From: Echinarachnius parma
Taxonomy: Eukaryota > Echinodermata > Echinoidea > Clypeasteroida > Echinarachniidae
Direction: 5' to 3'
Length of the DNA: 64,000 nucleotides
Assembly (NCBI GenBank): GCA_037951105.1
Contig: JBAMJV010008022.1
Location: forward strand, 1 to 64,000
Shown: positions 23,401-44,629 of the stretch, piece after piece
Layout: each line of letters opens with the position of its first letter
Position numbering within the stretch: position 1 is the first letter of the stretch
Position numbers and translations under genes: made by a program
Notes under the pieces: model-generated
Told to the model about the DNA's origin: nothing
The model's database searches: none
The model's input: only the letters and a program-made list of their open reading frames with translations

Positions 23401-26400
23401 ATTGTTTAGGATGCAATCAGTAAAATCACAGCACTTCCTTCGACTGAGTTATCGTCCGTTTGAATCATTGAATTAAAAATTAAAAATGCATTATGCATGC
23501 CACGTTTTCGCTTCATTTTGAGGACGCAATCGTTGAAATCACGGCACTTATTTCGACTTATTTATCGTCTGTTTGAATTATTAAATTTCAGAATTACGAC
23601 GAGTTTTTGATTGACTTATATTCGTAACGTTTTCGCTTCATTTTGAGGACGCAATCGTTGAAATCACGGCACTTATTTCGACCTATATCGTCAGTTTGAA
23701 TTATTAAATTTCAGAATTACGACGAGTTTTTGATTGTCTTATATTCGTAACGTTTTCGCTTCATTTTGAGGACGCAATCGTTGAAATCACGGCACTTATT
23801 TCGACTTATTTATCTTCTGTTTGAATTATTAAATTTCAGAATTACGACGAGTTTTTGATTGACTTATATTCGTAATGTTTTCGCTTCATTTTGAGGACGC
23901 AATCGTTGAAATCACGGCACTTATTTCGACTCATTTATTGTCTGTTTTAATTATTAAATTTCAGAATTACGACGAGTTTTTGATTGACTTATATTCGTAA
24001 CGTTTTCGCTTCATGTTGAGGACGCAATCGTTGAAATCACGGCACTTATTTCGACTTATTTTTCGTCTGTTTGAATTATTAAATTTCAGAGTTACGACGA
24101 GTTTTTGATTGACTTATATTCGTAACGTTTTCGCTTCATTTTGAGGACGCAATCGTTGAAATCACGGCACTTATTTCGACTTATTTATCGTCTGTTTGAA
24201 TTATTAAATTTCAGAATTACGACGAGTTTTTGATTGACTAATATTCGTAACGTTTTCGCTCAATTGTTTAGGATGCAATCAGTAAAATCACAGCACTTCC
24301 TTCGACTGAGTTATCGTCCGTTTGAATCATTGAATTAAAAATTAAAAATGCATCATGCATGCCACGTTTTCGCTTTATTTTGAGGACGCAATCGTTGAAA
24401 TCACGGCACTTATTTCGACTTATTTATCGTCCGTTTGAATTATTAAATTTCAGAATTACGACGAGTTTTTGATTGACTTATATTCGTAACGTTTTCGCTT
24501 CATTTTGAGGACGCAATCGCTGAAATCACGGCACTTATTTCGACTTATTTATCGTCTGTTTGAATTATTAAATTTCAGAATTACGACGAGTTTTTGATTG
24601 ACTAATATTCGTAACGTTTTCGCTCAATTTTTTAGGACGAAATCGGTAAAACCACAGCACTTCCTTCAACTGAGTTATCGTCCGTTTGAATCATATTGAA
24701 TTCAAAATTAAAAATGCATGCCACGTACAATGTTGTATTTCATACTTATTAATCTTTATTTTGTTTGTTTGCAAATTATATGTTTGCTATAATCAATGCT
24801 ATTATGGAACGATGATGGATATGCAAGTTGAATTTTTGAATAAAGATTCTGATTCTGGTGATATGATTTGGTGGAAGAAAAGTAAAGACGATTGTGGCCA
24901 AGAACTAAATGTATGTCGTGTGCGTAGAGTGATGATTATTATTGAATAAATCGATGGCATTCCTCAGGCTACTGTGTGTGCGCGTGTGCATGTGTGAATC
25001 GGGGCATCTGCTTCGAAGCGTGTTAGTTTTTTCTTCCCGCCGACTAGTTATGCGGACGTTAGGGAAAGCCGGTTAAGCCGCCATGTGCGAGTACCCCGTT
25101 TTAATACGAGGTGCGAGTCGCGATGTTTGCGACTATGAGAATAATTGAATAATGCTTCAAAGATCAAGTTGATTGTAATGTGTTTCGAACTTTATATAGC
25201 ATGAAAGGTGATTCATGGACATATTGAAACGAAAATGCAATCACGATTCCTTTTTTAAAAGAAAAATCGCCCTATAGCATTGCCGTATATTTTGTAAAGT
25301 ATACTATTTTTAGTTTGCCCAAGTGACTTGGACTTGAATTCCTCTTTATATAAAGAGTTGAACATTAATATTTGTGATGAACGTTACGGGTTAAACATGA
25401 AGCGAACACCTTACGAATATTAGTTAATCAAATATAATAATTCAAACAGACGTTTAGACATGAGTCGCTACAAGAAAATGGTGCTTAAAATATCTGAAAC
25501 ATCAACATTATCAAATATATGATAATTTCATGTGATAAGTTACTGAGGTCCGAAGAAATACGTTTTCGCGTATTTTGAGAACGCAATGGCTATAATTTTG
25601 GCATTTATTTGGACCCATTTATCGTCTGTCGGACTTATTAAATAAGCATACTTACGATGATATTTTTTATTGACTAATATTCGTAATGTTTTCGCTTCAT
25701 TTTGATAACGTAAACTGTAAAATCACGGCATTTATGTCGACTCATGTATCGTTTTCATCATCGCAAAATAAGAGCAGGCAATATCAAAATGATTGCCTAT
25801 AAATCGATGTCAAACTAATCTGGAATATCGTTATCATCTTCTTGAAATTAGCGAACAAAGTTACGGTAATGCGCTTCGAGAATATGACGCAAAATAAATA
25901 TGAAACATCGTTTTCATCATCGCAAAAAGAAGAGCAGGCAATATCAAAATGATTGCCGATAAAGCGATGTCAAACTAATCTGGAATATCGTTATCATCTT
26001 CTTGTAATTAGTGAACAAAGTTACGATGATGCGCTTCGAGATTATGATGCAAAATAAATCTGAAACATTGATTTCATCATTGCAAAATAAGAGCAGGCAA
26101 TATCAAAATGATTGCCGATACAGCGATGTCAAACTAATCTAGAAAATCGTTATCATCTTCGTGAAATTAGCGAACAAAGTTACGATAATGCGCTTCGAGA
26201 ATATGACGCAAAATAAATCTGAAACTTCGTTTTCATCATCGCAAAACAAGAGTAGGCAATATCAAAATGATTGCCGATAAAGCGATGTCAAACTAATCTG
26301 GAATATCGTTATCATCTTCTTGAAATTAGCGAACAAAGTTACGATAATGCGCTTCGAGAATATGACGCAAAATAAATCTGAAACTTCGTTTTCATCATCG

Positions 26401-27776
26401 CAAAATAAGAGCAGGCAATATCAAAATGATTGCCGATACACCGATGTCAAACTAATCTAGAAAATCGTTATCATCTTCGTGAAATTAGCGAACAAAGTTA
26501 CGATAATGCGCTTCGAGAATATGACGCAAAATAAATCTGAAACTTCGTTTTCATCATCGCAAAACAAGAGTAGGCAATATCAAAATGATTGCCGATAAAG
26601 CGATGTCAAACTAATCTGGAATATCGTTATCATCTTCTTGAAATTAGCGAACAAAGTTACGATAATGCGCTTCGAGAATATGACGCAAAATAAATCTGAA
26701 ACTTCGTTTTCATCATCGCAAAATAAGAGCAGGCAATATCAAAATGATTGCCGATACACCGATGTCAAACTAATCTACAAAATCGTTATCATCTTCGTGA
26801 AATTAGCGAACAAAGTTACGATAATGCGCTTCGAGAATATGACGCAAAATAAATCTGAAACTTCGTTTTCATCATCGCAAAACAAGAGTAGGCAATATCA
26901 AAATGATTGCCGATAAAGCGATGTCAAACTAATCTGGAATATCGTTATCATCTTCTTGAAATTAGCGAACAAGGTTACGATAATGCGCTTCGAGAATATG
27001 ACGCAAAATAAATCTGAAACTTCGTTTTCATCATCGCAAAATAAGAGCAGGCAATATCAAAATGATTGCCGATAAAGCGATGTCAAACTAATCTGGAATA
27101 TCGTTATCATCTTCTTGAAATTAGCGAACAAAGTTACGATAATGCGCTTCAAGAATATGACGCAAAATAAATCTTGAAACTTCGTTTTCATCATCGCAAA
27201 ATAAGAGCAGGCAATATCAAAATGATTGCTGATAAAACGATGTCAAACTTATCTGGAACATCGTTATCTTCTCAAAATTAGCAAACAAAGTTACGATATG
27301 GTATGCTGAAAAAACTTTGATATGCCCAAGAGAAAATGATACCCCAAAAAGCCCCCAAATATCTGAAACGGAACTTCATCGAATTGTCGACAAATCCCGA
27401 TTTAAAAATCAACTTATTTAGCAGATATCGGAAATGTTTTGACGTTGTTTTGGTCCCGTTTTCCACTTACAAAAACTGCGAAAGAAACTGGAATAAGTGT
27501 GTCATTCAAACGGGAATATAACTTTTCCAAAACACATGTTTTTTACCGGGTTTTTTTCCCCGGGTTTTGGCAATCGTCTCTCCAACCCGGAACCCGGCCC
27601 GGCCCGGCCGGGAAGCCAAACCCGGCGGGTTTGGCCCGGCAATCCGGGCCGGGCCCCAGGCTTACTTGTACACATGTGAAAATAGGTTTTACACTGATTA
27701 TTAGTAACATTATCATCACCATCATCATCTATCATCACCATCATCATCATCATCATCAACATCATCATCATCATCC

Positions 27777-27808: not shown

Positions 27809-30800
27809 TTCATCATCACGACCACCACCATCATCATTACCTTGTCTGTGACAGCCTTCTCTTTATCCTCCCCCAACTGATCTGCTTCTTTCCTAGCTCT
27901 CTGCAATTCCTCCCTAGTCTCTTTCAGCATCCTCCTCCCCTCATCCAGTCGTAACTCCATCTCGTCCTGGGATGCGATCTGCTGCGTCTCGGCATGAGAA
28001 GCCTGCGCCTCCAGCTCCACCTCCTTCTTCCTCCACTCCTCCCTCTCCTTTGAAATTAAGCAAATAATTGTGACTGGATATAGCAAAACCCTGCACTTTT
28101 CGGTAACCATCAAAATGGCATATGATGAAGGAATAATCCATTTAAGCTTTGTCTTTACTGTAACTCAATTCTACAGAACTTGTTAATTAGGGGTTTCGTG
28201 AAAAATAGCAAGAAAGCAACATTTACCAAATTCAGAATACAGACATCCAACGATGCATCACTTCATTTCTAACAAAATTGCCATAAGTACTAAATAATTA
28301 AATAAAGGTTTAGCCATATATTACACTTTATATAACTTTGTAACTATGCCCTTCACTTCTAAATTGAAGAACATTAAAACTTTATCACAATGGCAAGCAT
28401 GAAGTAATTAAATAAGCACAAATTAAACAAAAAATAATAGTAGTACGCTCACTAACCTTGGCCAAGATGTCCTGCACGTGTTTAAGCTGCCGTTCTGCCT
28501 TCATGCAATCCTCCCCCAGTGATTCCATCTGCTTGTTGGTCAGCTGTGCCAACTGCTGCGCATCCTCCCACCTCCTGGTGGTCTCTTCTTGGTGCTGATT
28601 CAGCTAGGATCAAAACGCACCAAGAAAAGTTTATATGATAATGTTACCATGAACAAAATCATCTAAAAATGGAATTTTCCAGTACTGTCATTTGGCTTAA
28701 AAAATACATCAGCATAGTTCCATTTAAATCTCTTTTAGATGATAGGGTGATAGCCCTCCGGAGGGAGGAGAAAGAGAAGGCTGTCACAGACAAGGTAATG
28801 ATGATGGTGGACTTAGAAAGAAAAATAAGCTAGCGCAGTTTCATGAATATGGGGCATGGTGGATGTTGCATAAAGAGATTTTCGCTTTAATTGTAACCCT
28901 ACTAGTTATTATCTCTTTGATGTACTAGTATAAGAAACCTTGCAAACTGAGATTAATATCATATTCTCATTGATCACCCGCCAGAGGGGCCCCGTTACTA
29001 TCTTGTCAATGAGACCCAATGCTCTGACACCAGCTATGTATTGGTTGACCCCCAAATCAGCATGTACTGCTTTCATCAACAAATTTGAATCTTTTGTTTC
29101 TTTTAAGTGCTGCTCAAGATGAGCTACTCCGGCACTGTTGTGAAAGATGATGTTAAACCTGTTTCCCCTAAAGGGGGCAAGGGGAACAGACATCACACCT
29201 TTAGAACGTAAATATGTACGAAATTCAATTGGTGTCCCCGATTTCTCGCATGCACGATCTTGGATAGATTTGCATATCGTGCGAACAAGCCGAACTGTTC
29301 CACTCTCGCCCCCTTTATTATTTGCACCAGTTAAAGTCCCCGCTCCAACTTTGCGATCCCCGAAAATCATAGATTCCCATGCAGTCAGAGTACTGCTGGC
29401 ATAGTTGGCCAATCCAACAACAAAATGCAAGCCACAAACAAAATTATTCATACTACTGAAATTGACTCTCTCCTCACAAGACATTTTATCCCAATCCTCT
29501 ATTATGGATGGGAGGATGTCTTGTCTGTATTCTCTTAATATTTTGTTAAATTTCTTTAGGACGATGTGCCTATCACTCATTGTATTTTTAATTTTGGCCA
29601 GTAAATCGTTCACGGACTTGTTTTCACTATCCTTACTACATAATTCTCCTAAAACGTCTATCAATGTGTTCAGAGTAGTGTCGGCAGTTCCCCGTACACA
29701 CTCCTTCATACCGAGCATGAATATATGACGTACGCAGTGTAGTGATGGCCAACATTTGGAAGTACCATCACTAGACAGGGTTAAATCTGACTCGGTTAAG
29801 GAGTGTGCTATCTGGATTTGTGACATTTTCCTGCTTTCGAGCAATATGTCTGCTGCCAATGTTTTTTTAGGCAGGTCGCCGACTTGAATATCAGTCAACC
29901 CCTCTAGAACATCACGAACAACATGCTCACAGTTCACGGTACTAACGCCATACTTCTGCAAATCTTGACCGACGCTTATCTTATTATTGTAGTGTGCGCC
30001 CTTTTTTAGGCTGAGCTTGCCGTCCCCTTTGATGGCGCACAATTCTTGCTGCAATTCACGGATTTGCTTATTCAACTGTCTTTTTTCATTAGCACTTTTC
30101 CTACGTTCAGCGTACACTTGCTTTCTTTTTGACTTTTGCCCTGTAATTCGTGTGACTTCGCGTCTCCGCAATCTTTTTTTTTTAAGTCTCATTTTGCATA
30201 TTACAGTAACTCATCTGCCTGTTTTCAGCTTGCGATTTTATTATCAGGTGACGTCCAGCTGAACCCTGGCCCATCTTCATCCAGTAGTCACCTTGGGGAT
30301 GGAGATCACCCGAACCAACTTCATGTAAACTTCTCATTAACTGCTAACCAGCACGCACATATGAACTATGGTGCATCAACTCTACATCATATCAATGACC
30401 ACGGTCGACGACTACTTTATCAAGATGTATGGAGTAGGATTAGTGAGCTGGGTATTGGACGGCATCAGCGAACTCATCGCGGCCGAAGACCACCCTCATA
30501 TTTTCCTCATCAACCTACCAAGACGATCAGAGATATACCCGTCATCATACAACCTCGGCAGACAAAGCCAGTCTCAGGCAGAATCGTTCATGAAAATCTT
30601 TGTGACATCCCGAGACACGATCCTTCTAAACCAACCAACATCAAGGTGGGATTGTGGACGCACATTCAGTCAGGAACAAATCATTCTTGCTCAGTGATTA
30701 TATCTGTGAGCAGAAATTAGACATTATTTTTCTAACTGAAACATGGCTCCATACTGATGACCCTGTGGTCATCAAAGAGTGTACTCCTCCCGACTACACA

Positions 30801-33800
30801 TTCCTCAGCATTCCGAGACACAACAGTGGCCACGGAGGTATCGGTGTAGTGTTTAAATCGGATCTCAATTTGACAGTGAAGAAAATTGACTCGCTGGTAT
30901 TCAACACATTTGAACTAGCATATGTAGTCAACTTTACAAAAGCCATTAAGTTCCTTGTAGTGTACAGACCGCCACCTTCTTCAGTTAACCGATACCGGAT
31001 AAGTGAATTTTTGACTGAATTTGAAATGCTAGTGAACGAGATAGCACTGTTACCCGTCGTTCTTCTTGGTGACTTTAACATGCATGTCGACTCACCAGCA
31101 AAAACTGATGTTGCACGTTTCCTTTCTATCATCGAAACAGGGAACCTCTCCCAGCATGTCCAAGGTCCAACTCACGTGAAGGGACATACACTGGATCTTG
31201 TTATGACCACGAATACACTGCATCCTTCTCACTCGCTACGTGAGAGCGACGATATTGACAATTCCAATGATTATCAGATACGGGATCTCATCATACACCA
31301 GAACTTACTCTCTGATCATCATTGCATCCAGTTTGGTTTAACTGTTCCATCACAAGTTCCCGCTAATAAGCGAGCAGTACACAGTGTGAGGAAATTTAGA
31401 GCAATGGACGAAGACGGATACTCCAAAGAACTCTCAAACAGGCTTGTAAATATAACTGACAATGGTAATGTTAACGACATGCTTAATGCATACAACACCA
31501 CTGTCACTGACTGCCTTGATACCTATGCCCCAAGAAGGACATTCCAACAATCCACGCGACTACGTAGACCCTGGTTCAACGACGATATCCTCTCTGCTCG
31601 GAGGTCTAGAAGGAAAGCTGAGAGAAGTGGCGTAAACATCCTTCTGATATCAACCGCACTGCATTTGAAGCAGCCAATAAACTTGTGAATGATCAAATTG
31701 CTCTTGCAAAAGAGGCATACCTCCATGAAAAACTGGATGATGCTGATAGCAAAACAATTTTTCAAACAGTAAACAATCTCTTGAATAAAGATTCAAGACC
31801 TCTTCCTGCCCACGATTCTCCAGCTATCTTGGGCAAACGATTCGCAGACTTCTTTGCTACAAAAATCCTCCATTTCAGAAATGAACTCGCATCCAGAATA
31901 CCACCCAACACCGCCAATGAAAGTGTCAACGATAATGCTGAGATGACATTCTCGACGTTCGACGTGATATCAGAGGCAACTCTCAAGGCTATCATGATGA
32001 AGATTGGCCAGATGATACCTAGACAGCGGACAAGGAAAAGAGATTGATTCCCCACATTTATATATTCTCAATATAATTTAATTTTGGTCTTGTTTATATG
32101 AGGAAAAAAATGAAAGTTGAAATAAATAAGACAAAAGAAAGAAGAAAATAAAAAAAGATTGGCGTAAATATTCAAAATGAATGAAGAACGCCAATAAAGT
32201 TAAAAGAACAACAACAACAACAACATCAAGCACTTCATGTTCACTAGATCTTCAACCAACCTGGCTTGTTAAGAACAATTTAGACTGCCATGTTCCTGCT
32301 CTCACGAAACTTGTGAATAATTCTCTTCAATCTGGCGAGTTTCCGTCGGCTGCTCACCATGCCATCATCACACCGATCCTCAAGAAACCGTCTCTCAACA
32401 AGGATGATACATCCAATTATCGTCCAGTCAGCAACATCGCATTTATAGCTAAGGTTATTGAGAAAGCGGTTGCTTCCCAATTTGTTGCATACTTAATTGA
32501 TCGAAATCTGTACGACCCCATGCAATCAGCCTATCGATCATGTCATAGCACAGAAACTGCACTACTGAAACTGCAAAACGACACTCTGGCTTTCTTTCAT
32601 GATTGCAATTTGCAAGGCAGTACTTCTAGTGCTATTGGACTTAAGTGCAGCTTTTGACACTGTCGACCATAACATTCTACTACAGCGACTCAAATTTCAC
32701 TTCTCTGTGACAGGTTCAGCTCTAGAATGGTTTACTTCATATTTGCATGGTTGGACGTCGCGTGTAAGCATCTCTGGGGTATTGTCAGATCCTCAGACCC
32801 AGGGATCTGTACTCGGACCCATCCTGTTTAGCATATACATTACCCCAATATCGAAAATATTTCGAAAAAACACCCTTCAATATATCATTTATGCTGATGA
32901 CATTCAAATTTATGCTCCATTCGACCCTCGATCACCAGAAGATTTTCAAGAGACACTACACTCCATATCAGAGTGTGTAATCGAGATTGAGAAGTGGATG
33001 TCATTAAATTTCTTAAAGGTAAATAGTTCTAAAACAGAATTCATGCTGATGCATTCAGTAAATTGCCAAGTGAATGATTTTCTTCACATTGAATTGAATG
33101 TTTCTGGTCATACAATTAAACTTTCCTCTCAGGTTATGAACTTGGGTATATGCTTAGATTCCAATTTTAAGCTTACGTTACACGTTAGCAATGTGATTAA
33201 GACATGTAATTTTCATTTACGTTATTTATGGCGAATTAGAAGATTTTTGAATATAGCCACCTGCCATCATGTTGTCAGAGCCCTAATTTTGTCTAGGATT
33301 GATTACTGTAACAGTCTGTTCACGCTTCTGTCCTCAAAAGACAAGAAGAGAATTGATAGTGTTGTTAATCGAGCCGCTCGATTAATTTATGCTGTTGGTC
33401 GAGGGGCACATACATCACCTTTGTTAAAAGAATTACACTGGTTACCATTTAGTCAACGCATTCAATTTAAAATTTGTTTGTATATATATAAAATTGTTAA
33501 ATTTGTAAGCGCTATGATATGTTGTGAATAGCGCTATATAAGTAACCTGTATTATTATTATTATTATTCTTACCTGATCTCTAAAAGTCTGTTCGGAACT
33601 CTGTGCTGCTTCACATTGTTGTCTCAATTCAGCCAGTTCCCTCATCTGATCAGAAATCATCTGATAAAAGGACAAAATAAGAAAAATGGCGAAGCATTTA
33701 TTAACACATATATCACGTTTTCACAACTGCCCTACTTATCTTGTCCCACATACATAAAGAAATTAATAATTTGTCCTTAGGGGCTAACCACACTCTTGGT

Positions 33801-36800
33801 TAAAACTCCTATGGAGTATTCAGGAGGATTAAACTATGAAGTACCAAGTATTGTGCGCAGGAGACTGTTCACGAACAAACACAAACACACAAATCCCAAT
33901 ATTAGATACATAATTGATGCATAAACATAGATGCATAATTTGCATAATAATCTTTGTAATAATAAATAGAAAGATGACTGGATGACGGCATTAATTTCAA
34001 AATTTACCTGTTTTTGTTTCTCATTCTCCTGCAGGAGGGCATCATTGGCTGGTTTGAGTTGATCCAGCATAGCCACTTTCTCATCATCGCCACTATCAAT
34101 TATTTCTACAAACATTGGGATACTCTATGCATAATTTGCATAATAATCTTTGTGATAATGAAAAACAAAGATGACTTGATGACGACATTGACTTTAAAAA
34201 AAAAAAAACGGTTTTTGTTTCTCATTCTCATGTTGGAGGGCATCATTGGCCGATTTGAGTTGATCCAGCATAGCCACTTTCTCCGTCCCTTGCTTCTATT
34301 GTTAATACGAACACAACAGGGTATGAGGGAACTGCTAGAATTCCAATTGGATTTTGTGGATTTGGACAATGTCACTAGATCCCTTTAATTTCAAATTACC
34401 TGTTTTTGTTTCTCATTCTCATGTTCGAGGGCATCATTGGCTGATTTGAGTTGATCGAGCATAGCCACTTTCTCCGTCTCTCGTTGCTTGAGGCTGGCTG
34501 AAACCTTGGCCATTGTCTGCATGCATGAAGGGGGATAGTAAAGCCTAAATGTTAGAGTCTAATTTCAGTTATGAGAAAGAGAACATTTGGAAATTGAGAT
34601 AAAACTGGTGTAGAAGCAGGCTTACCAATGAAATGGAATGTATACATTATACTTAACTAAACTATATGGTTGCTCCTTAAATTTGGTACAGAGAATAAAA
34701 TACACTATTTTTATGTGGTGGTTGAAATCATTTATTCTTTCTTTCTTTCTTTCTAACATTTTCTGCATAATACTTATTGAACCATATTTACTAGGCCTGG
34801 GACAAATACCCTTTTTGCTATCGCGAGTATTCGACCGGAAAGGTATTCGGATAAACCGTATATCCGAATCTTCATCCGTTTGGTAAAAAAAGTAATATTC
34901 GAATACCCACAGCTGTTCAGCTATTCAAATATATTTCTGATATTCGGATACTTGTCCCTGGCATAATATTTACCTTATCAAGTTGAGAGATCATGTTGTC
35001 TTTCTTCTTCTTTTTCTTCTGTTCAGCTATTCCAATCATTCAGATATTTGGATATTTGTCCCCAGTATAATATTTACCTTTACAAGCTGAGAGATCATGT
35101 TGTCTTTCTTCTTCTTCTTCTGTTCAGCTATTCCAATCATTCAGATATTTGGATATTTGTCCCCAGTATAATATTTACCTTTACAAGCTGAGAGATCATG
35201 TTGTCTTTCTTCTTCTTTTTCTTCTGTTCAGCTATTCCAATAATTCAGATATTTGGATATTTGTCCCCAGTATAATATTTACCTTTACAAGCTGAGAGAT
35301 CATGTTGTCTTTCTTCTTCTTCTTCTTCTGTTCAGCCATTCCAATCATTCAGATATTTGGATATTTGTCCCCAGTATAATATTTACCTTTACAAGCTGAG
35401 AGATCATGTTGTCTTTCTTCTTCTTCTTCTTCTGTTCAGCTATTCCAATCATTCAGATATTTGGATATTTGTCCCCAGTATAATATTTACCTTTACAAGC
35501 TGAGAGATCATGTTGTCTTTCTTCTTCTTCTTCTGTTCAGCTATTCCAATCATTCAGATATTTGGATATTTGTCCCCAGTATAATATTTACCTTTACAAG
35601 CTGAGAGATCATGTTGTCTTTCTTCTTCTTCTTCTGTTCAGCTATTCCAATCATTCAGATATTTGGATATTTGTCCCCAGTATAATATTTACCTTTACAA
35701 GCTGAGAGATCATGTTGTCTTTCTTCTTCTTCTTCTGTTCAGCTATTCCAATCATTCAGATTTTTGGATATTTGTCCCCAGTATAATATTTACCTTTACA
35801 AGCTGAGAGATCATGTTGTCTTTCTTCTTCTTCTTCTGTTCAGCTATTCCAATCATTCAGATATTTGGATATTTGTCCCCAGTATAATATTTACCTTTAC
35901 AAGCTGAGAGATCATGTTGTCTTTCTTCTTCTTCTTCTGTTCAGCTATTCCAATCATTCAGATATTTGGATATTTGTCCCCAGTATAATATTTACCTTTA
36001 CAAGCTGAGAGATCATGTTGTCTTTCTTCTTCTTCTTCTGTTCAGCTATTCCAATCATTCAGATATTTGGATATTTGTCCCCAGTATAATATTTACCTTT
36101 ACAAGCTGAGAGATCATGTTGTCTTTCTTCTTCTTCTTCTTCTGTTCAGCTATTCCAATCATTCAGATATTTGGATATTTGTCCCCAGTATAATATTTAC
36201 CTTTACAAGCTGAGAGATCATGTTGTCTTTCTTCTTCTTCTTCTGTTCAGCTATTCCAATCATTCAGATATTTGGATATTTGTCCCCAGTATAATATTTA
36301 CCTTTACAAGCTGAGAGATCATGTTGTCTTTCTTCTTCTTCTTCTGTTCAGCTATTCCAATCATTCAGATATTTGGATATTTGTCCCCAGTATAATATTT
36401 ACCTTTACAAGCTGAGAGATCATGTTGTCTTTCTTCTTCTTCTTCTGTTCAGCTATTCCAATCATTCAGATATTTGGATATTTGTCCCCAGTATAATATT
36501 TACCTTTACAAGCTGAGAGATCATGTTGTCTTTCTTCTTCTTCTTCTTCTGTTCAGCTATTCCAATCATTCAGATATTCGGATATTTGTCCCAGGCATTA
36601 TATTTACCTTATCAAGCTGGGCGATCATGTTGTCTTTCTTCTTCTCCGTGGCGTGCGCGACGGCCAGCAGTTGCTGAGACTCTAGGATCCTACCCTGGAG
36701 GGTGGCTATCTGCTCCTCACAGTGCTGATATGAGACGGTGGGGAAAGAAGTTAAAATGTCAATGTTTACAAAAGAGGAGCAAATAAAATGTGTACAGAAA

Positions 36801-39800
36801 TTTACAAGTAGGCTGATAATTCCCTTTATAACTTTCATGCAAATAATGAAAAACAAACCCCCCCCTCCCCCCCAAAAAAAAAAAAAAAAAAAAAAAAAAG
36901 AAGAAGAGATTTTAATGATCAGTTACTAAATAGCTCTACCTTGCACCTTTTACTTGTTAATTAGTAAGATTGCCAAAGGTTTTGACACATTGGCCGGTAT
37001 TCTACTAAATGTATCAACACATTATGTTTATTGTTTGTTGCAAATCTACATTTTAAGAGTGAAAATTGCTGATTTACCCTTCTTCGACACCTCTCCCTGT
37101 CCAAGCTGTCCCGCAGCATCCTGTTCTCAGTCTGCATGCTGCTGTCTGCCCCACTGAACTCAAATGACCTTTGGCCGACCCCTGACCTTTGGTTGACCTC
37201 TGGCTTTTGGCTGGAAGCAAGGTGGGAGGTCTGGTGGGAGGCTAGTCCACTGTCCTCGGCCAGCCTGTCCAGGGATGGAGATATGTCTTGGAATGCCTGT
37301 GCGCTGCAAAAATAACCCATTATAATAAAGGTGATATTGAATCAGTTTGATCTGTTTACTGAAGGGCCCAATCGACCCCTGATGACCTTTGGCCGACCCC
37401 TGACCTTTGGTTGACCTCTGACTTTTGGCTGGAAGCAAGGTGGGAGGTCTGGTGGGAGGCTAGTCCACTGTCCTCGGCCAGTCTGTCCAAGGACGGAGAT
37501 ATGTCTTGGAATGCCTGTGCACTGCAAAAATAACCCATTATGATATTTAATCAGTTTATTGTATCTGTTTATTGAAGTTCCCACTCAACCCCAGATGACC
37601 TTTGGCCAACCTCTGACTTTTGGCTGGATGCAAGATGGGAGGTCTGTTGGGAGGCTAGTCCACTCTCCTCGGCCAGTCTGTCCAAGGACAGAGATACTTC
37701 TTGAAATGCTTGGGCGCTAGACACAGTGATGACAATAACAATAAGGAAATATGGATTTTTAACAAGAAGAATAAGATAACATCAAAAACAATAATAATAA
37801 TAATGAAACAAATAAATAATACAAATACTACTACTAATAATAATTAATGATAATGATAATTATAATTCATTATGCAATGAAGAATTTATTTTATTGCATT
37901 TATCATTGTGAATGTAAATAAAGGTACCGGTAATAAATTTACCAATAATTAATTAATGGTGAATGAAATAAACAATTTGTCAATTAAAACAAATCTTAGT
38001 TACCCAAGAAGAGAGTCGGTCTTTGCACTATCAGTTGACTGCCTCTGGAGATACTTCCCATCGCTGGATCCATGCAGTAGAAGCTCCGACAGAGATTCAT
38101 TGCGCAACACACTCTCTTGTTCTGTTGAGAGAACAAAAAATAAATCTAAATTAGCATTGGTGCCAGCAGGCCTGGTGTCACCACAAGAAAGAAAAAAATG
38201 TGTGCATTAAGATAATACAAACATAAAATATTTACTATTGAAAGAATCTGAGCCATAAATAAATCAATACATTTTTCAAACACCAGCCAATTCTGGCAAG
38301 TAACCATGTAATAAAGCTGGCTGAAGAAAAATTCCACTTACCCATATATAACCTAAATTAACAAATATACTATGCTTGACCAATTTGGGCATCTACTTTT
38401 CCTATTTTCCCTAAAATACTAACCAAGATCTTACTTTGCAATTCATCGCAATTTTGCCAATTGCTTATAATTGACAAAAACTTTTTACTAATTAAAGGTC
38501 ATGTCAGATTTCTCTTGAGTGTTCTGAATGACAGTGACCATTGAATATTCTTTTTTAGTCTTTTTCTTGTTCTAGCAAGTGATGCATGCCTCTTTTTTTT
38601 TCTTTTTTTTTTCTTTTTTATATTTGCTCAACTAAGCCGGTCAGAAAACAATTAACATTTTGTACAGCCCTGAATGTAATCTGACTTCATGGTTCTGGCT
38701 CCCTTACCTGGGGAAGATATCATGTTGCTTAGATTCTGCCTCAGGTGCTCAATCTCAGCAAACTCTGGAGGGAAGTGGGATGGCTAAAAATAACAAGGAA
38801 CAAATACAAAATTAGACATACATTTTAACTTACTTCTGCATTCTATTGATTATCATGGCAGCAGAAAAACAATATTTAGATTAAAAACAAGACATTTGTT
38901 TTTGGTTTTAAAAGGTTTGCAGAGAATGTGTTTGTCCAAAATAATAACTTCAGTCACTATATATACAACACTGAAAAATATGAACAAATTTGGAGCCTTT
39001 ATAATGTTGGTATCAAAATCAGAATTTTTTATCACAATCCTGAGACTGGAAGTTCTATCAAACTTACAGCCTCTAGAGTTAATTTATCTCTTTTAAAAAG
39101 TGTAATGTCCCCATTACCTGATAGCTCGTCACCCGTTTTCTGTTGTGTGGACTGGATGACAGTGGCCGTTGATCAGCAGATGGCGACCAACGTGCTTCGT
39201 GGACAGAAGACGTCAGGCTCTCAGGGACATGATGGTGTGGAGGTGGGCTATCAGCTGAATGGTCATCCTCTGATGACTGTTTTTCAATGTCCATCCGATC
39301 ACTCTGAGCGTTGTAGCTGTACGCTGACCCCTTGGCCTGGCTGTGGCTGTGACTGCTCGCGTTATAATCTGCACCGGCTGATTCCAGGCTAAATTTCACA
39401 GAATCATGGGAATCTATTTGTTGACTATTAGTGTCGATATCGTTCACACCAGATCTTGATGAACTAACGCCTCTCAGAGAATGCATCCCAGCATCTGATG
39501 CAACTGGAATCTTCGATGCGGCAATACCCGCCTTTGTCTGCGAGTGCAAATGCAGACCTGAAGACGAGCTGATGTGGGAATCCTTCTTTACAAAGAGCTC
39601 TCGATTCACCACAATCTCAGAAGCGGTTACATATTGTTGCCTGCTTCTCTGAAGGGAGTCACGGTCGTGGATCTTGTGAGCGCTGTGCTTTGTCTCGCTG
39701 AAACCGCCCCTACGCTGCTCAAAGCTCACGCCCCGCTCCTTCCTAAGGCTGCTCGGCTCAGAAGCTGTAGTGGGAACTCTTCGAAGTCCACGGTCCATCG

Positions 39801-40197
39801 GTTCTGTTTGAAGTCCACGGTCCAGTGGTTCTCTTCCCAGTCCATGGGCATGATCTAGTGATGATAACCCTTCCCTTCTGTGCTGGAAGGAACCGGGAAA
39901 TGCACTTGAAGCATCTCCTATGGGCGAAAACAGTGCACCGACATTAGGTTCCGTGCTGGAATAAGCATTCATTCCCTCCAGGTTGCGAGACATGGCGGAG
40001 GTATGATGAGAAGATACCACACTGCCTCTCGACTTAAGATGATATGATGATGCTGCCTTTGGATTGGGGCTAGCGCTGGGTGTGGTTTCTGCACTACTTC
40101 CCAAAGGTTCAATGCCGCTTAGTGTACCGGTTGTGTTCGTGTTAGAATCAGCACCAATGTCCCCAAAATTATCCAAGTTAAATTTCCTCTGCGCCAT
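14283..40197 (-). CDS. CNTROB: Centrobin orthologue, 17 coding exons, complete
   Basis: Centrobin is a daughter-centriole and microtubule-associated coiled-coil protein needed for centriole duplication. Exons from the start: 39118-40197, 38708-38783, 38004-38121, 37078-37303, 36608-36724, 34400-34516, 33574-33660, 28457-28603, 27841-28047, 21985-22277, 21295-21360, 19197-20356, 17386-17563, 16427-16484, 15903-16008, 15267-15460 and 14283-14447. All junctions are GT-AG and all phases agree; the CDS is 4395 nt. Identification: exon 5 encodes KKKDNMIAQLDK, close to the vertebrate centrobin sequence at the start of its coiled coil. Exon 12 opens like the vertebrate end of the coil (a LVGKLQHFLQ-type segment). 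The protein ends in GAWR (human GVWR). The order is a disordered Ser-rich N-terminus of about 360 residues, a coiled coil of about 400 residues (exons 5-11), a disordered Ser/Gln-rich region with a polyQ tract, and a basic C-terminus. It is longer than the human protein (about 900 aa). Several exons have local partial copies; see other entries. Confidence 0.9.
15836..15899. mobile_element. Tc1/mariner MITE fragment abutting a centrobin donor
   Basis: The right part of the family seen whole at 11390-11579, ending CAGGTTTGACTG, followed by TA at 15900-15901. That TA is part of the GTA at the 5' splice site of centrobin exon 15. Confidence 0.8.
16295..16405. repeat. Palindromic MITE with GGGCGTYGATC ends
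   Basis: The left arm GGGCGTTGATCTGTAATTG pairs with the right arm GGATCGACGCCC; the inner arms ACCTATTG and CAATAGGT also pair. The ends resemble the hAT element at 50612-51482. It lies in the intron just after centrobin exon 14. Confidence 0.7.
17140..17308. mobile_element. Tc1/mariner-type MITE (CAGTGAAA ends)
   Basis: Second copy of the family at 12504-12667, with TA on each side and the same internal CTCATTATA pairs. Intronic in centrobin. Confidence 0.78.
17564..18190 (-). repeat. Partial tandem copies of centrobin exon 13
   Basis: The block starting at 17969 repeats the first two thirds of exon 13 (17386-17563) with few changes and keeps its acceptor (ccccacag), but loses the donor half. 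A third, more degenerate copy lies at about 18085-18180. The intron segment around GAGACTTTGATCGTC is duplicated with it. Confidence 0.85.
18346..18694. mobile_element. Non-autonomous hAT-type element, 349 bp
   Basis: Flanked by a perfect 8-bp duplication GAGGGGGA (18338-18345 and 18695-18702). Ends CAGCG and CCCTG. The inside repeats GGGGGCTACTTTT phrases. Relatives are at 53779-54142, 46955-47133 and 54627-54802. Confidence 0.88.
18771..18993. mobile_element. MITE with long inverted repeats (AGAGCCGACTCGACC)
   Basis: The terminal repeats of about 40 bp contain ACACAGAGCCGACTCGACC and its complement GGTCGAGTCGGCTCTGTGTG, and a central CAACATGTTG palindrome. A possible TTA target duplication suggests a PIF/Harbinger-like origin (inference). 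Other copies: 21024-21244 and 58098-58327 (opposite orientation). Confidence 0.8.
19197..20356 (-). CDS. CNTROB: Centrobin exon 12: end of the coil and disordered region
   Basis: 1160 nt. It opens with a short helix (FSLVGKLQHFLQSQCNEA) that corresponds to the end of the vertebrate coiled coil, then becomes low in complexity with many Ser, Thr, Pro, His and Gly. A polyglutamine tract from CTG/CAG triplets lies at 19740-19760. Acceptor ctttttcag, donor TTG|gtaagc. A copy of its first 130 nt, with its own acceptor, lies 198 nt upstream. Confidence 0.9.
20424..20554 (-). repeat. Copy of the start of centrobin exon 12, with acceptor
   Basis: A near-identical copy of the first 130 nt of exon 12 with a T-rich tract and AG. 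It starts exactly 198 nt before exon 12, and the interval is free of stop codons in the exon 12 frame. A shorter remnant follows at about 20615-20670. Confidence 0.85.
20690..21023 (-). repeat. Reverse copy of the DR1-bearing interspersed repeat
   Basis: Complementary in order to the repeat at 45284-46545: ACCAAGTTTGATGG, TCTTGAGATAAC, and TGTGACCTTTGACCCCATGA. It is followed at once by a copy of the CGACTCGACC MITE. Confidence 0.75.
21024..21244. mobile_element. Second copy of the CGACTCGACC MITE
   Basis: Same orientation as the copy at 18771, with the GTCAGGCTAGAGTC and GACTGGCTCTTGACC phrases. Intronic in centrobin. Confidence 0.8.
21985..22277 (-). CDS. CNTROB: Centrobin exon 10: charged coiled coil
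   Basis: 293 nt, phase 0 in and phase 2 out. It is rich in Glu and Arg, as in the central rod of vertebrate centrobin. Acceptor ctcttccag, donor CAG|gtaggc. Degenerate copies of its first part are found upstream at 22361-22456 and 22540-22592. Confidence 0.9.
22350..22720 (-). repeat. Degenerate partial copies of centrobin exon 10
   Basis: 22361-22456 and 22540-22592 repeat the first part of exon 10 (the phrases CTCAACTCAAGACTAG and TCTCCTGG), with frame-destroying changes. A third remnant is at about 22650-22715. None keeps a usable exon. Confidence 0.75.
23080..24720. repeat. Satellite array A, unit about 125 bp, about 13 copies
   Basis: Each unit contains AGAATTACGACGAGTTTTTG, ATATTCGTAACGTTTTCGCT and GAAATCACGGCACTTATTTC. 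A diverged unit type (TTTAGGATGCAATCAGTAAA and AAAAATTAAAAATGCAT) recurs at about 23400, 24250 and 24620, so the array has a higher-order pattern. Confidence 0.92.
25735..27290. repeat. Satellite array B, unit about 159 bp, about 10 copies
   Basis: Units contain TTTTCATCATCGCAAAA, GGCAATATCAAAATGATTGC and CAAAGTTACGATAATGCGCT. From about 26060 to 26990 two unit types alternate (GATAAAGCG with CTGGAATATCG, and GATACACCG with CTAGAAAATCG), giving a 318-bp dimer. Confidence 0.92.
27715..27840. repeat. (ATC/ATG)n microsatellite at a splice donor
   Basis: Nearly pure trinucleotide run that starts inside the 5' splice site of centrobin exon 9 (gtaatgatgatgg on the minus strand). The Met-rich open frame over it is a by-product. 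Confidence 0.9.
27841..28047 (-). CDS. CNTROB: Centrobin exon 9: charged coiled coil
   Basis: 207 nt, phase 0 at both ends, almost entirely Glu, Lys, Arg, Leu and Gln in heptad-like spacing. The donor AAG|gtaatg runs straight into a long ATG microsatellite. A 47-bp inverted copy of this exon end and donor lies at 28764-28810. Confidence 0.9.
28764..28810 (+). repeat. Inverted 47-bp copy of the centrobin exon 9 end and donor
   Basis: Matches the minus-strand sequence 27871-27825 with one mismatch, and includes AGACAAGgtaatgatgatgg, that is, the exon end, the splice donor and the first bases of the intron. It points the opposite way to the gene. Confidence 0.88.
28909..30192 (-). CDS. DDE-transposase-like protein of unknown superfamily, C-terminally truncated
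   Basis: 427 codons from a true ATG. Residues 1-50 are strongly basic and helical (KKKRLRRRE, then RRKSANEKRQLNKQIRELQQ), a possible DNA-binding coiled coil. Asp142 lies in SSDGTSK and Asp207 in MSDRH. CGLH at 253-256 fits the C-x-x-H signature found between the second acid and the glutamate in several eukaryotic cut-and-paste transposases. The expected third acid is not evident and the C-terminus looks cut off at about residue 410. I recall similar uncharacterised proteins in cnidarians and echinoderms, but cannot name the family. It lies in a centrobin intron in the same strand sense and head to head with a LINE. Confidence 0.6.
   Translation of the reverse strand: MRLKKKRLRRREVTRITGQKSKRKQVYAERRKSANEKRQLNKQIRELQQELCAIKGDGKLSLKKGAHYNNKISVGQDLQKYGVSTVNCEHVVRDVLEGLTDIQVGDLPKKTLAADILLESRKMSQIQIAHSLTESDLTLSSDGTSKCWPSLHCVRHIFMLGMKECVRGTADTTLNTLIDVLGELCSKDSENKSVNDLLAKIKNTMSDRHIVLKKFNKILREYRQDILPSIIEDWDKMSCEERVNFSSMNNFVCGLHFVVGLANYASSTLTAWESMIFGDRKVGAGTLTGANNKGGESGTVRLVRTICKSIQDRACEKSGTPIEFRTYLRSKGVMSVPLAPFRGNRFNIIFHNSAGVAHLEQHLKETKDSNLLMKAVHADLGVNQYIAGVRALGLIDKIVTGPLWRVINENMILISVCKVSYTSTSKR
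30654..31688 (+). pseudogene. LINE endonuclease fragment
   Basis: An open frame of 344 codons covers the apurinic endonuclease domain. TETWL carries the catalytic Glu, GDFN and SDH are the other active-site blocks, so the domain itself looks complete. The frame is lost on both sides relative to the N-terminal 2A segment and the RT. Confidence 0.85.
32181..33531 (+). pseudogene. LINE reverse transcriptase, two overlapping frames
   Basis: The first part (NYRPVSN, QSAYR) and the second (LDLSAAFDTVDHN, GSVLGPILF, YADD) belong to one RT domain split by a frame shift near 32603. The C-terminal segment (LLKELHWLP) is present, but the rest is deleted, so the frame ends in tail sequence. Confidence 0.88.
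33995..34385 (-). repeat. Two partial copies of centrobin exon 6
   Basis: The real exon is 34400-34516. A copy at 34008-34083 keeps the last 25 codons and a good donor (CAG|gtaaat) in the same phase. A copy at about 34208-34290 has lost its donor to an A run. Flanking intron sequence (TGCATAATAATCTTTGT) is duplicated too. Confidence 0.88.
34939..36607 (-). repeat. 16-copy minisatellite derived from centrobin exon 5 and its donor
   Basis: Units of 101 or 104 bp (differing by one CTT). On the minus strand each holds codons for KKKDNMISQLVK followed by the splice donor gtaaat and about 60 bp of intron. The outermost copy (34985) and the real exon share the GAT codon (QLDK), while inner copies have GTA (QLVK), so the inner units spread from one variant. 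Confidence 0.95.
36608..36724 (-). CDS. CNTROB: Centrobin exon 5: start of the coiled coil
   Basis: 117 nt, phase 0 at both ends. It encodes CEEQIATLQGRILESQQLLA followed by KKKDNMIAQLDK, the block most similar to vertebrate centrobin. Its 3' end, with the donor AAG|gtaaat, is the source of the minisatellite that fills the next 1.6 kb of intron. Confidence 0.92.
36867..36899. repeat. Poly(A) tract next to a C run
   Basis: Homopolymer stretch in the intron between centrobin exons 4 and 5. The open frames over it are not genes. Confidence 0.9.
37375..37716 (-). repeat. Two further copies of centrobin exon 4
   Basis: The real exon is 37078-37303. Copy 2 starts at 37521 and copy 3 at 37716. Both keep the acceptor and the correct entry phase, and both encode versions of AFQDISPSLDRLAE and SGLAS-QTSHLASSQK. 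Neither keeps the exon 4 donor; copy 2 runs into a stop. Confidence 0.9.
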
Positions 40198-40211
40198 GGT
40201 TCCAGACAGTT
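39118..40211 (-). CDS. CNTROB: Centrobin first coding exon
   Basis: The start ATG at 40197-40195 lies in a strong context (accATGG). An in-frame TTG upstream is not a start. A 3' splice site (T-rich tract then aactag) ends at 40212, so 14 nt of 5' UTR precede the ATG and an upstream non-coding exon must exist. The 360-codon coding part is serine-, histidine- and glycine-rich, without predicted structure, and carries short charged repeats such as EPMDRGL. The donor is CAG|gtaatg at 39118. Confidence 0.9.
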
Positions 40212-42180
40212 CTAGTTGTTTCAATTAAAAAACAAAAAGATTTTCACTAAAAATAATACAATAGACCCTTGACTTTGAGTTTGAGGAATTAACTTATAAA
40301 ATAAGAAAACAGTTCAGTTGAGTTAGTAATTTACAAACCATTTTGTTAAGGATGAAGCAAATTGAAATATGGCGTACAAAACTGCATCGAGACTCTTGAA
40401 ACATAGTCATAAACAGTGATAATCAGTAGAGGCAGAGCATGCTCGCAAACGGGGATCGTCATAAAAAACAAGGATCCTTGTAAACGAGGGCAAATTGCAT
40501 CAGCAAATGAGGATCGTCCTCTTTTTTTCTGTTATGCCCTACGCCTACGGGATTAGGGTTAAAGTTACGGGACTTGAGATAGCTAAAAATAGATTCCTTG
40601 TTATCTTAAATTACCCCTAGTTCACCGTCTTCTTTTGTGTGTTGCCTGTCTTCTCACAGAAAAAAAATGTGTTATATACAAATATGTGTGTTAAAGTATA
40701 GGACCATCGCGACCTTGCCACTGCGAGCAGCAATGGATGGGAGCTGATTTTGTATTTTTTCTTGTTTCTTGGCTATGCAGACATGTCTTTATAAATGAGG
40801 CCAACCCCCACAATGTAAGACGATCTGCATTTGCGAGTGTGTGCCTCAATACTGATTACTGATAATGATAAACAATTACAAATTATCAAATAAGATACAT
40901 TTTAATTATTTATGGTGGCCCCAATTTGGCCAACTTTTGTTCAATCATGATTTATGCAACGCCAACTCCACACGCGCGTCACGGGTAGCTAGCCGCATAG
41001 TATAGCAAGGGGTTGCAATACCGAACGGGTTGTATTACCGTACATGCAAATTCCAATAGGAAAAACGTTCGAATTTTGAAAGTTGAATTTGAGAGTCGGC
41101 ATTAACGGAGGATAATAAATGGATGTTTAGCAAACATTTTCCACCATTTCCCGAAGAAAATAAGCGCCCTGAGGCATTATACGCGCGTTTTGCCGCGCAC
41201 CAGTGGCAGCGCGCATGTCAATGACATTCCCATGCAAAACATTCACGTTTGGTGCGTCCGGTTAATACAACCCGGTTTGTGCGCTACAAAAAAATCTGCT
41301 TTCTTGAAAGGGTGCCATAAAAGTTCAATTTGCGTAAGTTTGCCGCTTTTTTCTACGAAATAAGTTATCAATTCTTTATCTTGAGAATATATAGATCACT
41401 TATTTGTGTTTTATTCATATCTCTGTTCTTCATGTTGATCGTTTTCATGGCGTAAAGAAATGGTATCCGGTAATAGGACCCGATGGCATACACCTACCAT
41501 ACATCATTACAATCATGTAATAATACTGTGCAAATAGTCTTTAGTAGTAATACTATAGTATTACAATAGTATACACATACGTACATAAATGTGACGGACA
41601 CAAATTTATTACAATTTAATTGAAATCATTAAATGAAACTAAGTGATGACTTGTATATATTTGCAATTATGTTTTGCCATTTGAGAATTGAGGGGCCACC
41701 AAAATAAAAAAATTCAAAAATTGGTGACATTAATTTTAAACTCATTTAATTTAAAGTCAATAAACATTAATAAAAAGGGCCACTAGAAAATAAGTAATGC
41801 GGAGCAATGCGGCGCCGAGCAATGCTGCATTACTTAGTGCCAAAAGACATCATATCAATTCAATATTAATCATAATTTTCAAAATTGTTTAATTAAGTTT
41901 GTTTTGGGGTGCCAGCGGTCTCGGGCTGGATGGCCTGCGCCTGGCCGCGGCCGCGGCCGCGGCCAGTGGGCTGTGTCCCTGTCTGGATCTCGGGGACTTG
42001 CAAAAAAAGACAGCGGCTTTTCTGAACCGGACACGTAAATTCCCCTTTTCTGAGACTGAGGCGGTTCAAATCATTTTGATTTCAAAATTTAGTATTACTT
42101 AGTACAAATTAAAACATTAAAGAACTCAATTATCATGTCAAACTAAATTTAAAGCACAGTAAAAGCAGGAATTTACTCAC
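40212..42180. other. Region upstream of centrobin
   Basis: Probably the first intron of centrobin plus flanking DNA. It contains CpG-bearing stretches at 40960-41250 and a 26-bp perfect palindrome of GGCCGC units at 41941-41966. No family-level coding similarity was found apart from the short GRG-encoding frame. Confidence 0.45.
41893..41996 (-). CDS. Possible short exon encoding a GRGRGRG stretch
   Basis: A T-rich acceptor (tctttttttgcaag) precedes an open frame to TAA at 41893. Joined in phase to an ATG at 42235 via the donor at 42181, it would make a protein of about 51 residues with a GRGRGRGQAQ segment. Codon use looks coding-like, but I recognise no family. The underlying DNA includes a 26-bp perfect palindrome. 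It could also be an alternative 5' exon of centrobin. Confidence 0.25.
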
Positions 42181-42245
42181 AATTTTCGGCCGGAAAATTC
42201 AAACATCGTAGCTCAATAACAATGGCACTGCGCATGCGTGCAATA
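42181..42245 (-). promoter_or_regulatory. CNTROB: Candidate 5' UTR exon and promoter of centrobin
   Basis: A strong donor (AATT|gtgagtaaat) ends this segment at 42181, and a GCATGCGCA word resembling an NRF1 site lies at its start. Centrobin needs an upstream non-coding exon, because a splice acceptor sits 14 nt before its ATG. This is the nearest good donor on the same strand that I noticed. The transcription start is unknown and the link is inference. Confidence 0.4.
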
Positions 42246-43879
42246 AAAACATAATTAGCTGATCCAATATTGCTTGAATCTTACAGGCCATCGGATAATT
42301 CCACTGGGATAGCGAAATGTGTACCCAAGCGTATTATTATAAACAAGCGAAGCATAGAGCCAAATAAGGTGGCGCAGATTTGGCGGTGCCAATTTGTTGA
42401 GGCAGATGCCTCATCGATTTCCCCCATTTTACTTCTTTTTTTGTTACCACAAGTCATCAAATCAGGGGGGTGTTGCATACAATTTAGCAATTTTAATTTG
42501 TGATAAATCACAAGTAAGAAAATATGCGCATTACAGCTAGCCCATCAGAGTTGCGTATTTCATTGGCCGCATTTTGTGACTTTTAAGCGCAACGTACTTT
42601 GCGATTGATCGAGTATGCAACACTCCCAAGGGATAGAATTAAACATAATTGCCAGATGTGAAGTGTTAGAAAATAATAAAGGAAGACAATTAGGAAATGT
42701 AAACACTATTTTCATTGCATACATGACATGGCAGACAAAAAAAGAAAATGGAGAAATGGAGAAAGAAATAGAATATAGAAAGACCGGTGACTGAACAGGG
42801 TTATCATCTGCTCATGCAGTGGTGAATTTAGGGGGCGCCTTTTTATTATTATTAATTTGCAGCCTCAAATACTAAACCCGGCTATATGAGACGAGGCTCT
42901 TCAATGGACACCCCATGCACTGGGACTGATCCGAGCTTCTCTCAGAAAATTATCAAACTGCCCTCTTTGGAGCAGTTCAAGGTGGCTCTTGAAACCATTT
43001 AGTTCCCTTTTCAGGAACGTTACCCTCATCTAGATGCTGAACAGGCATTGATATAGTATAATTTTTGAAGAGAAAGAAACCGGTCGAAAGTAATTGAATA
43101 AAGACTTAACCAAGGAATACTAGCGTGTTTCCGAGTTTATTTTATTGACTTTTTTATATTTATTTCATCGACGAGGACTTTTTAAGTTAAATTTATTTGT
43201 ATAATTACCATATAGCAGTCACTTTTATATTAATTTACACAAAAATACTAAAAGAAAATTCATATGGAAGATCCCAAAAATAGACTGTACCCAGTGCTAG
43301 TGCCCCCTAGTCATGACCCCCGGCACCCCCCACCCCCGCCCCCCCCCCCCCCCCCCCCCCCCCAACCAGGACTGCCACCGCAAGCTCCTTTTACCACCAC
43401 CATCACATCACCATGAATTAGGCTTCAAGTTCAGCTTTTAGTTCAATTACCTGTACTGCACTATGTTTGAATTTTTAAATTGGCAATGCTAAGAGTGCAG
43501 TTTCCCTCTCGATCTGCTCAGCTCAGCTGATCAAGGGATCGGAGTCGAGCTACGGTAGATATATCTATATTAAAAGCCGTATTCGAAATCGTCTACGGTA
43601 CAGAAGTAAAAGTTGTATCAACTTGAACTAATGGGAACATTTGGTATTTTCCGATGTCGACCGAAATTATATTTGAGACGTTATCGTTAGACTTTTCATA
43701 TGCTTTGCATGAAATTGAGCTTGGTATTTGAAATTGATTGTGAAGTTGTTTTTTGTGGGCTTTGAGTTTGGCCTTTGCATTTGGCCGGCTGCAGCTGCTT
43801 TCCTTTGCCAGAATCCCTGCCATTGCCACTCCCAGATTGACTTTGTTCTACACTACGACTACGTCGACTACATTAAATT
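42246..43879. other. Intergenic and promoter region before the KCTD gene
   Basis: Holds a long C tract (43337-43363) and the probable KCTD promoter and 5' UTR in its last few hundred bases. I saw no convincing TATA box. Confidence 0.5.
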
Positions 43880-43894
43880 ATGAAGATGGTGTGA
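43880..43894 (+). promoter_or_regulatory. Four-codon upstream ORF before KCTD
   Basis: ATG AAG ATG GTG TGA ends 18 nt before the KCTD start. If it is in the mRNA it would load ribosomes just ahead of the main ATG and could reduce or condition translation. Confidence 0.4.
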
Positions 43895-43912
43895 AGAATT
43901 GCTGTGCTCACA

Positions 43913-44629
43913 ATGACTGACTTTGTCAGCCTCAATGTCGGAGGTACAATCTACACCACGTCTCGCGCAACTCTCAACCATTTTCCCGACTCCATGCTCG
44001 GTTCCATGTTCAGCGATCGGATGCCTTCTAACCAGGATGCTCAGGGAAATTATCTGATCGACGGAGATGGCCCGCTGTTCCGACACGTGCTGAACTTTCT
44101 GCGGAGGTCTGTTCTCATGCTTCCGGAGGATTTTAAAGAGCTTGACATGCTTGCTCAGGAAGCGGATTATTATCAAATTCAGGAGCTGATCGATGCGGTG
44201 ACGCAGCTCAAGAACGAGGTTACATTAAAGCGGGAGGAGGAGGCGCGAGCACGCAACCGCATCAAGGAACATGAGTTCCTGGAGGTCGAGTTTGAATGCG
44301 CCAACGGCCGCTGGATCATCTTCAGCAGCTCGGACATCCTGCAGAAGATTCCCGTCGTCATGGAGAGCTTCGGAAACCATCAGCGCCTCGTACGCAATCA
44401 GCTCGATCACATCTTTGGCCCCGAGGAAAACGGGCTGATAATCCCCCGCGAGCAGCCGCTGAATCGCGTCAAACTCTTTAGACAGATCACGCAGTTGGGA
44501 TTCAGTCTCGTTTCTGTGTCCTCTAGCGGAGGGGACGAACGGTCGACGGACCGTTGGGTCTTCAAAAGGGAGGTGAAGCCGGGAAGTATAGATTCGCCAT
44601 CGAAGGAAAAGCGTGGAAAATGTAAATGA
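43913..44629 (+). CDS. KCTD6/11/21-like BTB protein, intronless
   Basis: 238 codons in a single exon. Residues 3-100 are a BTB/T1 domain with the family blocks VSLNVGGTIYTTSRATL, DSMLGSMF, IDGDGPLFRHVLNFLR and LAQEADYYQIQEL. The spacing and sequence are closest to KCTD6, KCTD11 and KCTD21 (KCASH proteins), which act as CUL3 adaptors, oligomerise, and in vertebrates lower Hedgehog output through HDAC1; function here is by family. The C-terminal half is charged and then forms a second domain (HIFGPEENG, LGFSLVSV, WVFKREV) that aligns loosely with the KCTD6/21 C-terminus. The ATG at 43913 is chosen because the frame upstream has only a GTG. The body is GC-richer than its surroundings. Confidence 0.85.
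   Translation: MTDFVSLNVGGTIYTTSRATLNHFPDSMLGSMFSDRMPSNQDAQGNYLIDGDGPLFRHVLNFLRRSVLMLPEDFKELDMLAQEADYYQIQELIDAVTQLKNEVTLKREEEARARNRIKEHEFLEVEFECANGRWIIFSSSDILQKIPVVMESFGNHQRLVRNQLDHIFGPEENGLIIPREQPLNRVKLFRQITQLGFSLVSVSSSGGDERSTDRWVFKREVKPGSIDSPSKEKRGKCK

Follow-up and report, generated by a model that had tools for sequence, protein, structure and literature searches.

A seventeen-donor tandem array in an intron of Echinarachnius parma, probably grown from a hAT-like MITE inserted on the exon 5 splice donor

The closest described counterpart of the locus reported here is the VNTR in intron 18 of human ABCA7, which starts at the exon 18 donor and has a 25-bp unit (PMC5954066). When the donor one unit on is used, one 25-bp unit is retained with a frameshift; skipping of exon 19 goes up with VNTR length, and one-unit retention is unchanged with length. 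Other relevant systems are introners with splice sites derived from target-site duplications, in which the duplication made by a DNA element gives the 5' splice site (PMC9860276), the tandem dual-specific splice sites of human UBC, with AGGT at every repeat boundary (PMC10809524), and tandem repeats built from part of a transposable element (PMC9659126, PMC6947457).

The array that follows exon 5 of an Echinarachnius parma gene shares something with each of them. Like the ABCA7 VNTR it is intronic, lies directly 3' of an exon and carries a donor inside its unit; copy number is variable in ABCA7, and here 17 and 3 donors are present on two contigs that are likely to be alleles. Unlike the ABCA7 unit, which is 25 bp long and runs from the GT, the present unit of 101/104 bp takes in the exon end and so repeats positions -3 to -1 and coding sequence, and its origin can be traced to a MITE. 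A DNA element whose duplication gives a 5' splice site is also a feature of these introners, but here the donor was probably pre-existing and became duplicated, the intron is far larger than the element, and the case described is one intron rather than a family. AGGT stands at every repeat boundary as in UBC, and part of a transposable element was built into the repeat as in other transposon-born tandem repeats, although in our case the unit includes an exon end and a splice site too. RNA effects have been shown for ABCA7, and the UBC repeats are coding with sites used in RNA, whereas the exon 5 array has intronic repeats and is known from sequence alone.

The window, that is the whole 64-kb stretch of DNA analyzed, contains the gene on its minus strand. 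The exons, the intron and the array are as follows.

36608 to 36724, minus strand: exon 5, 39 codons, HCEEQIATLQGRILESQQLLAVAHATEKKKDNMIAQLDK, with its 3' end AAG at the true donor
36600 to 36607, minus strand: true 5' splice site of exon 5, GTAAATAT, the same 8 bases as the target-site duplication of the MITE
34517 to 36607, minus strand: intron 5, phase 0, 2091 bp, holding the array and the MITE; splice sites assigned by sequence with splice-site matrices
34400 to 34516, minus strand: exon 6, beginning TMAKVSASLKQRETEKVAML, with acceptor CATGCATGCAG/ACA and donor CAG/GTAATT
34913 to 36645, minus strand: tandem array, 17 units of 101/104 bp, from TRF and a unit table
35077 to 36503, minus strand: interior donors of units 1–15, fifteen in number and near-identical

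We take the gene to be a putative centrobin by its likeness to the human protein; a Pfam scan of the joined exons 5–7 and the large upstream ORF gave no match above cut-offs, so the name is tentative. The COX1 of this genome gives a good reading with ATA as Ile, and with AAA as Asn at a conserved Asn position, in agreement with the echinoderm mitochondrial code, although a hemichordate source may fit as well. Exon 5 is bounded by the acceptor CATATCAG/CAC and the donor AAG/GTAAATAT. An earlier note on this DNA had placed the donor at 36608, which is the last exon base, the intron starting at 36607. Partial copies of two other exons are also present. Three copies of the 5' part of exon 4, each with an acceptor-like AG, lie at 37164–37718, in and before exon 4, at a spacing of about 215 bp and with 85–86% identity, the two upstream copies reaching stops; this triplication mirrors the exon 5 array. 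Intron 6 holds two extra copies of the 3' part of exon 6 (33931–34481, 74–91% identity), one retaining a CAG/GTAAAT donor and the other having lost its donor. Upstream of the gene, on the plus strand, lies a KCTD-like ORF (43895–44629) with a BTB_2 domain (E 3.9e-21).

TRF describes the array as 17.0 copies of period 101 with 96% matches and a score of 3125. The earlier note had read it as an exon end amplified together with its own donor, leaving 16 extra donors beside the true one, and both the TRF array and the unit table bear this out: the gene strand of the array has 17 donors AAG/GTAAATA, the true exon 5 donor and 16 extra. All 17 read AAG/GTAAATAT, and from -3 to +8 no decoy differs from the true donor. 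The first intron bases lie at 36607 (true), 36503, 36402, 36301, 36200, 36096, 35995, 35894, 35793, 35692, 35591, 35490, 35386, 35282, 35178, 35077 and 34973 (unit 16), spaced by 101 bp in 10 and by 104 bp in 6 of the 16 intervals. Across the window AAGGTAAAT is found 18 times on the gene strand, 17 of these being the array donors, and once on the opposite strand, counts that place the array far beyond chance; as a donor it scores at the 99th percentile of the 3351 GTs in the window (matrix score). The exon-derived part is in frame as had been claimed, at phase 0, exon 6 beginning ACA ATG GCC AAG. The note had also remarked that unit length changes only by whole codons. In the 16 extra units the AAG tract is 4 or 5 codons long, and units of 101 and 104 bp differ by one AAG codon of this trinucleotide tract, the usual step of slippage, which accounts for the length changes and makes them uninformative on coding.

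The remainder of the unit is not the ordinary intron that had been supposed, as 51 of 101 bp are the end of a transposable element. A full unit thus comprises the exon 5 end with its AAG tract, the donor, which is also the target-site duplication, and 51 bp of MITE end. The element and its flanks occupy the following positions.

34792 to 34965, minus strand: hAT-like MITE, 174 bp, with ends TAGGCCTGGGAC and GTCCCTGGCATA, recognized from terminal motifs, flanks, family matches and end alignment
34797 to 34808, minus strand: acceptor-like distal MITE end, TATTTGTCCCAG/GCC, score 6.3, 95.5th percentile of window AGs (matrix score)
34784 to 34791, minus strand: outer copy of the target-site duplication, 8 bp, ATATTTAC, on the gene strand GTAAATAT
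34966 to 34973, minus strand: inner copy of the target-site duplication, equal to +1 to +8 of the unit 16 donor

The MITE ends are inverted, and the exon-side end supplies the MITE part of the array units. Its flanks are an exact 8-bp duplication, ATATTTAC, which on the gene strand corresponds to intron bases +1 to +8. The element is dispersed: the left part of the array, used as a query, matched many genomic copies, and the 17-mer end TAGGCCTGGGACRAATA of the element has 91 exact matches in the genome, against 0 for the reversed control. We sampled the family at 30 of these 91 places and at loci from two other searches, keeping pairs with a second end within 60–1200 bp and leaving duplicates out, which gave 27 distinct pairs including the array locus. 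Flank identity at length 8 averaged 0.61, compared with 0.32 in mismatched pairs, and at every other length from 3 to 11 it was near its mismatched control. Perfect 8-bp flanks were present in 6/27 pairs (5/26 without the array locus) and in no mismatched pair; flanks matched at 7 or 8 of 8 bases in 10/27, the array locus included, and agreed at 6 or fewer in 17/27. Perfect flanks were also seen in single pairs at length 4 and at length 10, and at one locus (L057) the 12-base flanks were identical. The ten best pairs, the array locus among them, follow the motif nTnnnnAn, with T2 in 8/10 and A7 in 8/10; this is the target motif of Hermes, a hAT element (PMC2803484). The 8-bp duplication, the motif, and the short length with inverted ends and many copies are those of a hAT-type MITE, and the element forms a strong predicted hairpin (-66.1 kcal/mol, z -5.99). 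One other locus of the family (L015:1033-1684) has three head-to-tail ends followed by the opposite end within about 650 bp, and is another small MITE-derived array.

The junction between units can be read from the bases that follow GAACAG. Among genomic MITE ends holding TAGCTGAACAG, CTG comes next in 12 of 13 distinct ends, and the same is seen in unit 16, which adjoins the MITE body. Behind the other 16 donors, those of the true exon and units 1–15, GAACAG passes into an exon-5-like AAG tract. The true exon (unit 0) and unit 16 have CTTGATAAG, and all 15 interior units have CTTGTAAAG, which traces the interior units to one changed copy. Over 92 nt they differ pairwise by 0.43% on average, with 0 differences in the 33 nt of the exon part and 0.68% in the donor and MITE part; with so few changes, the unvarying exon part speaks neither for nor against constraint. 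Several changes, a 2-base indel among them, separate the MITE parts of units 0 and 16, which points to an old first duplication or to conversion.

Whole exon 5 is present at two places only in the assembly, the window and contig C10559. The latter has the same MITE and 8-bp duplication (locus L012), but 3 donors as opposed to 17; its true donor is GTAAATAA, and its single interior unit is identical to 12 of the 15 interior units of the window. Exon 5 itself shows 4 nucleotide differences between the two copies and encodes the same protein. Divergence is 2.2, 2.7 and 3.0% in three blocks on the MITE side, 9.1% in the block on the exon side and 0.3% at 37018–39018, an unevenness that makes the flanks an uneven yardstick. 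With that proviso, 0.43% among interior units relative to 2.2–3.0% in the flank suggests recent expansion or homogenization. Either the copy number changed after the two versions split, or conversion keeps the units uniform. The two contigs are most likely alleles, though C10559 may be a recent duplicate because its collinearity with the window stops at 46542.

Several other differences between the contigs were observed. The stretch 37018–46542 is 99.45% identical to C10559, and matches to its left are at about 91–97%; the change is sharp near 37015, a point at which C10559 is longer by about 1.1 kb, and suggests a switch of haplotype or recent conversion. Collinearity ends in a region of 151-bp tandem repeats (45281–46543), an inverted copy of which lies near the start of C10559 (1960–3103). 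About 4.9 kb of the window at 28654–33553 corresponds to about 130 bp in C10559, and this stretch contains ORFs that by eye are non-LTR-retrotransposon-like (30630–33531). Similarly, 22769–27664 holds two tandem arrays in the window, with a 125-bp unit at 23098–24691 and a 159-bp unit at 25749–27298, against about 265 bp in C10559.

We consider it probable that the array arose as follows. A non-autonomous hAT-type MITE would have landed exactly where intron 5 begins, on its 5' splice site; under this model the empty exon boundary would have read AAG/GTAAATATGG. As the 8-bp duplication is intron +1 to +8 (GTAAATAT), the insertion would have rebuilt the donor and so been tolerated. In a later tandem duplication, the AAG tract of the exon end would have been fused to the inside of the MITE after GAACAG, giving a unit of exon end, donor and MITE end, and through repeat-length mutation one version of the locus would have come to hold 15 interior units and the other one. 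The MITE, its duplication, the composition and junction of the units, the 17 and 3 donors and the low divergence of the interior units can be read from the sequence; the order of events and the passive nature of the array we infer. The donor presumably existed before the insertion, rather than being gained with the MITE, since the MITE fills only part of the intron. A separate candidate, an introner origin of intron 5 as a whole, was rejected: the MITE makes up 174 of 2091 bp, and the exon 6 acceptor lies about 275 bp past it. The resulting VNTR is most likely a mostly passive one, transcripts using for the most part the exon-proximal true donor with some one-unit retention. The reading frame of exon 5 continues for 13 sense codons in the intron before a stop, so a decoy donor without a decoy acceptor would mean a premature stop and not a longer coil. 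If the first decoys were used now and then, transcripts would retain at least 104 nt with an early stop and would probably be degraded.

The earlier note had proposed that each unit could be spliced in as a phase-0 exon, adding up to a coil of variable length, which we regard as scarcely credible. Its exon size of 39 or 42 nt becomes 42 or 45 nt (14 or 15 codons) when the CAG ahead of the AAG run is taken as acceptor. The frame is indeed open at phase 0, and the AAG tract is like purine-rich splicing enhancers, yet the AG ahead of AAGAAG lacks a pyrimidine tract and scores -1.6, the 46th percentile of the 3382 AGs in the window, when the four acceptors of exons 4–7 score 4.9 to 9.2 (91st–99th percentile; matrix scores throughout). 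Better AGs within the unit reach 3.2 and 3.5, both under all four of these acceptors, and with no usable acceptor ahead of each unit's coding part we rejected a coding micro-exon array. Moreover, within the 33 nt shared with exon 5 the interior units depart from it at two codons, and both alter the residue (A to S and D to V), in contrast with the silent differences between the two exon 5 copies. Stepwise removal of units by recursive splicing, with AAAG/GTAAAT in each serving as acceptor and donor, is very unlikely. AGGT is present in every unit and AAAG/G scores 3.5, the 85th percentile of AGs (matrix score); human UBC tandem AGGT sites behave in this way, and tandem-repeat genes are enriched for introns of this kind (PMC10809524). 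That score is nevertheless below all four exon 4–7 acceptors, position -3 is an A, and by eye several AGs follow a possible branch point before the site is reached. It is also highly improbable that the array length, or its contrast with C10559, is an artefact of collapse or false expansion in assembly. Arrays of near-identical units are difficult to assemble, but four substitutions and mixed 101/104 lengths tag some of the interior units, and the same MITE and the same terminal unit kinds are found on both contigs.

A copy-number splicing switch is an alternative that we think doubtful: decoys would compete for U1, lowering productive splicing or causing exon 6 to be skipped, and the 17-donor version would make less protein than the 3-donor version. 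In its favor are the identity of the decoys with the true donor over -3 to +8, the high rank of AAGGTAAAT noted above and the increase of downstream exon skipping with VNTR length in ABCA7; against it, one-unit retention in ABCA7 is constant across lengths (PMC5954066). Predicted accessibility bears on it in both directions. The true donor of C10559 has a higher predicted accessibility (0.37) than its decoys, which have 0.08 and 0.04 (unrounded, 0.368, 0.078 and 0.035), and that of the window is not set apart, 0.16 against 0.14–0.18, so that a long array might lose the advantage of the true site. This contrast is, however, a prediction on one pair of sequences, and it shrinks with a wider folding window, to 0.13 against 0.07 and 0.04 in C10559 and 0.044 against 0.027–0.060 in the window. 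That local structure generally shields the true donor was rejected as an explanation, as the window values are 0.158 for the true donor and 0.142–0.175 for the 15 interior decoys; the unit 16 donor has a predicted local accessibility of 0.024. In a global fold of the whole of intron 5, 14 of the 15 interior donors are paired over -1 to +8, the partner of one inspected interior donor being the donor region of the neighboring unit. For the exon end with two units, shuffled sequences fold at least as well (z +1.64).

The exon 5 array is an ABCA7 kind of VNTR with a longer, exon-containing unit and a traceable transposon origin. No title among the matches listed in a literature search, mostly without subscription papers, names a MITE-born, donor-bearing exon-end array, which is weak evidence of absence. 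The locus offers a readable origin for a donor-bearing VNTR, in which a transposon would have landed on a splice site, the donor been saved by duplication and the unit grown in tandem. Such VNTRs can matter, the human ABCA7 VNTR being associated with splicing changes and disease risk, and the two versions of the locus form a natural experiment on how identical donors compete at two copy numbers. More speculatively, and we consider this quite unlikely as a whole, the hAT preference for nTnnnnAn would fit 5' splice sites of the form GTnnnnAn, so that hAT MITEs might land on donors and regenerate them; the far end TATTTGTCCCAG/G of this family, a fair acceptor, would pre-adapt it to spliceable, introner-like insertions and to donor arrays, and the present array would act as a splice modifier dependent on copy number (17 versus 3). 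The overlap of hAT target preference with splice donors is in itself a testable idea.
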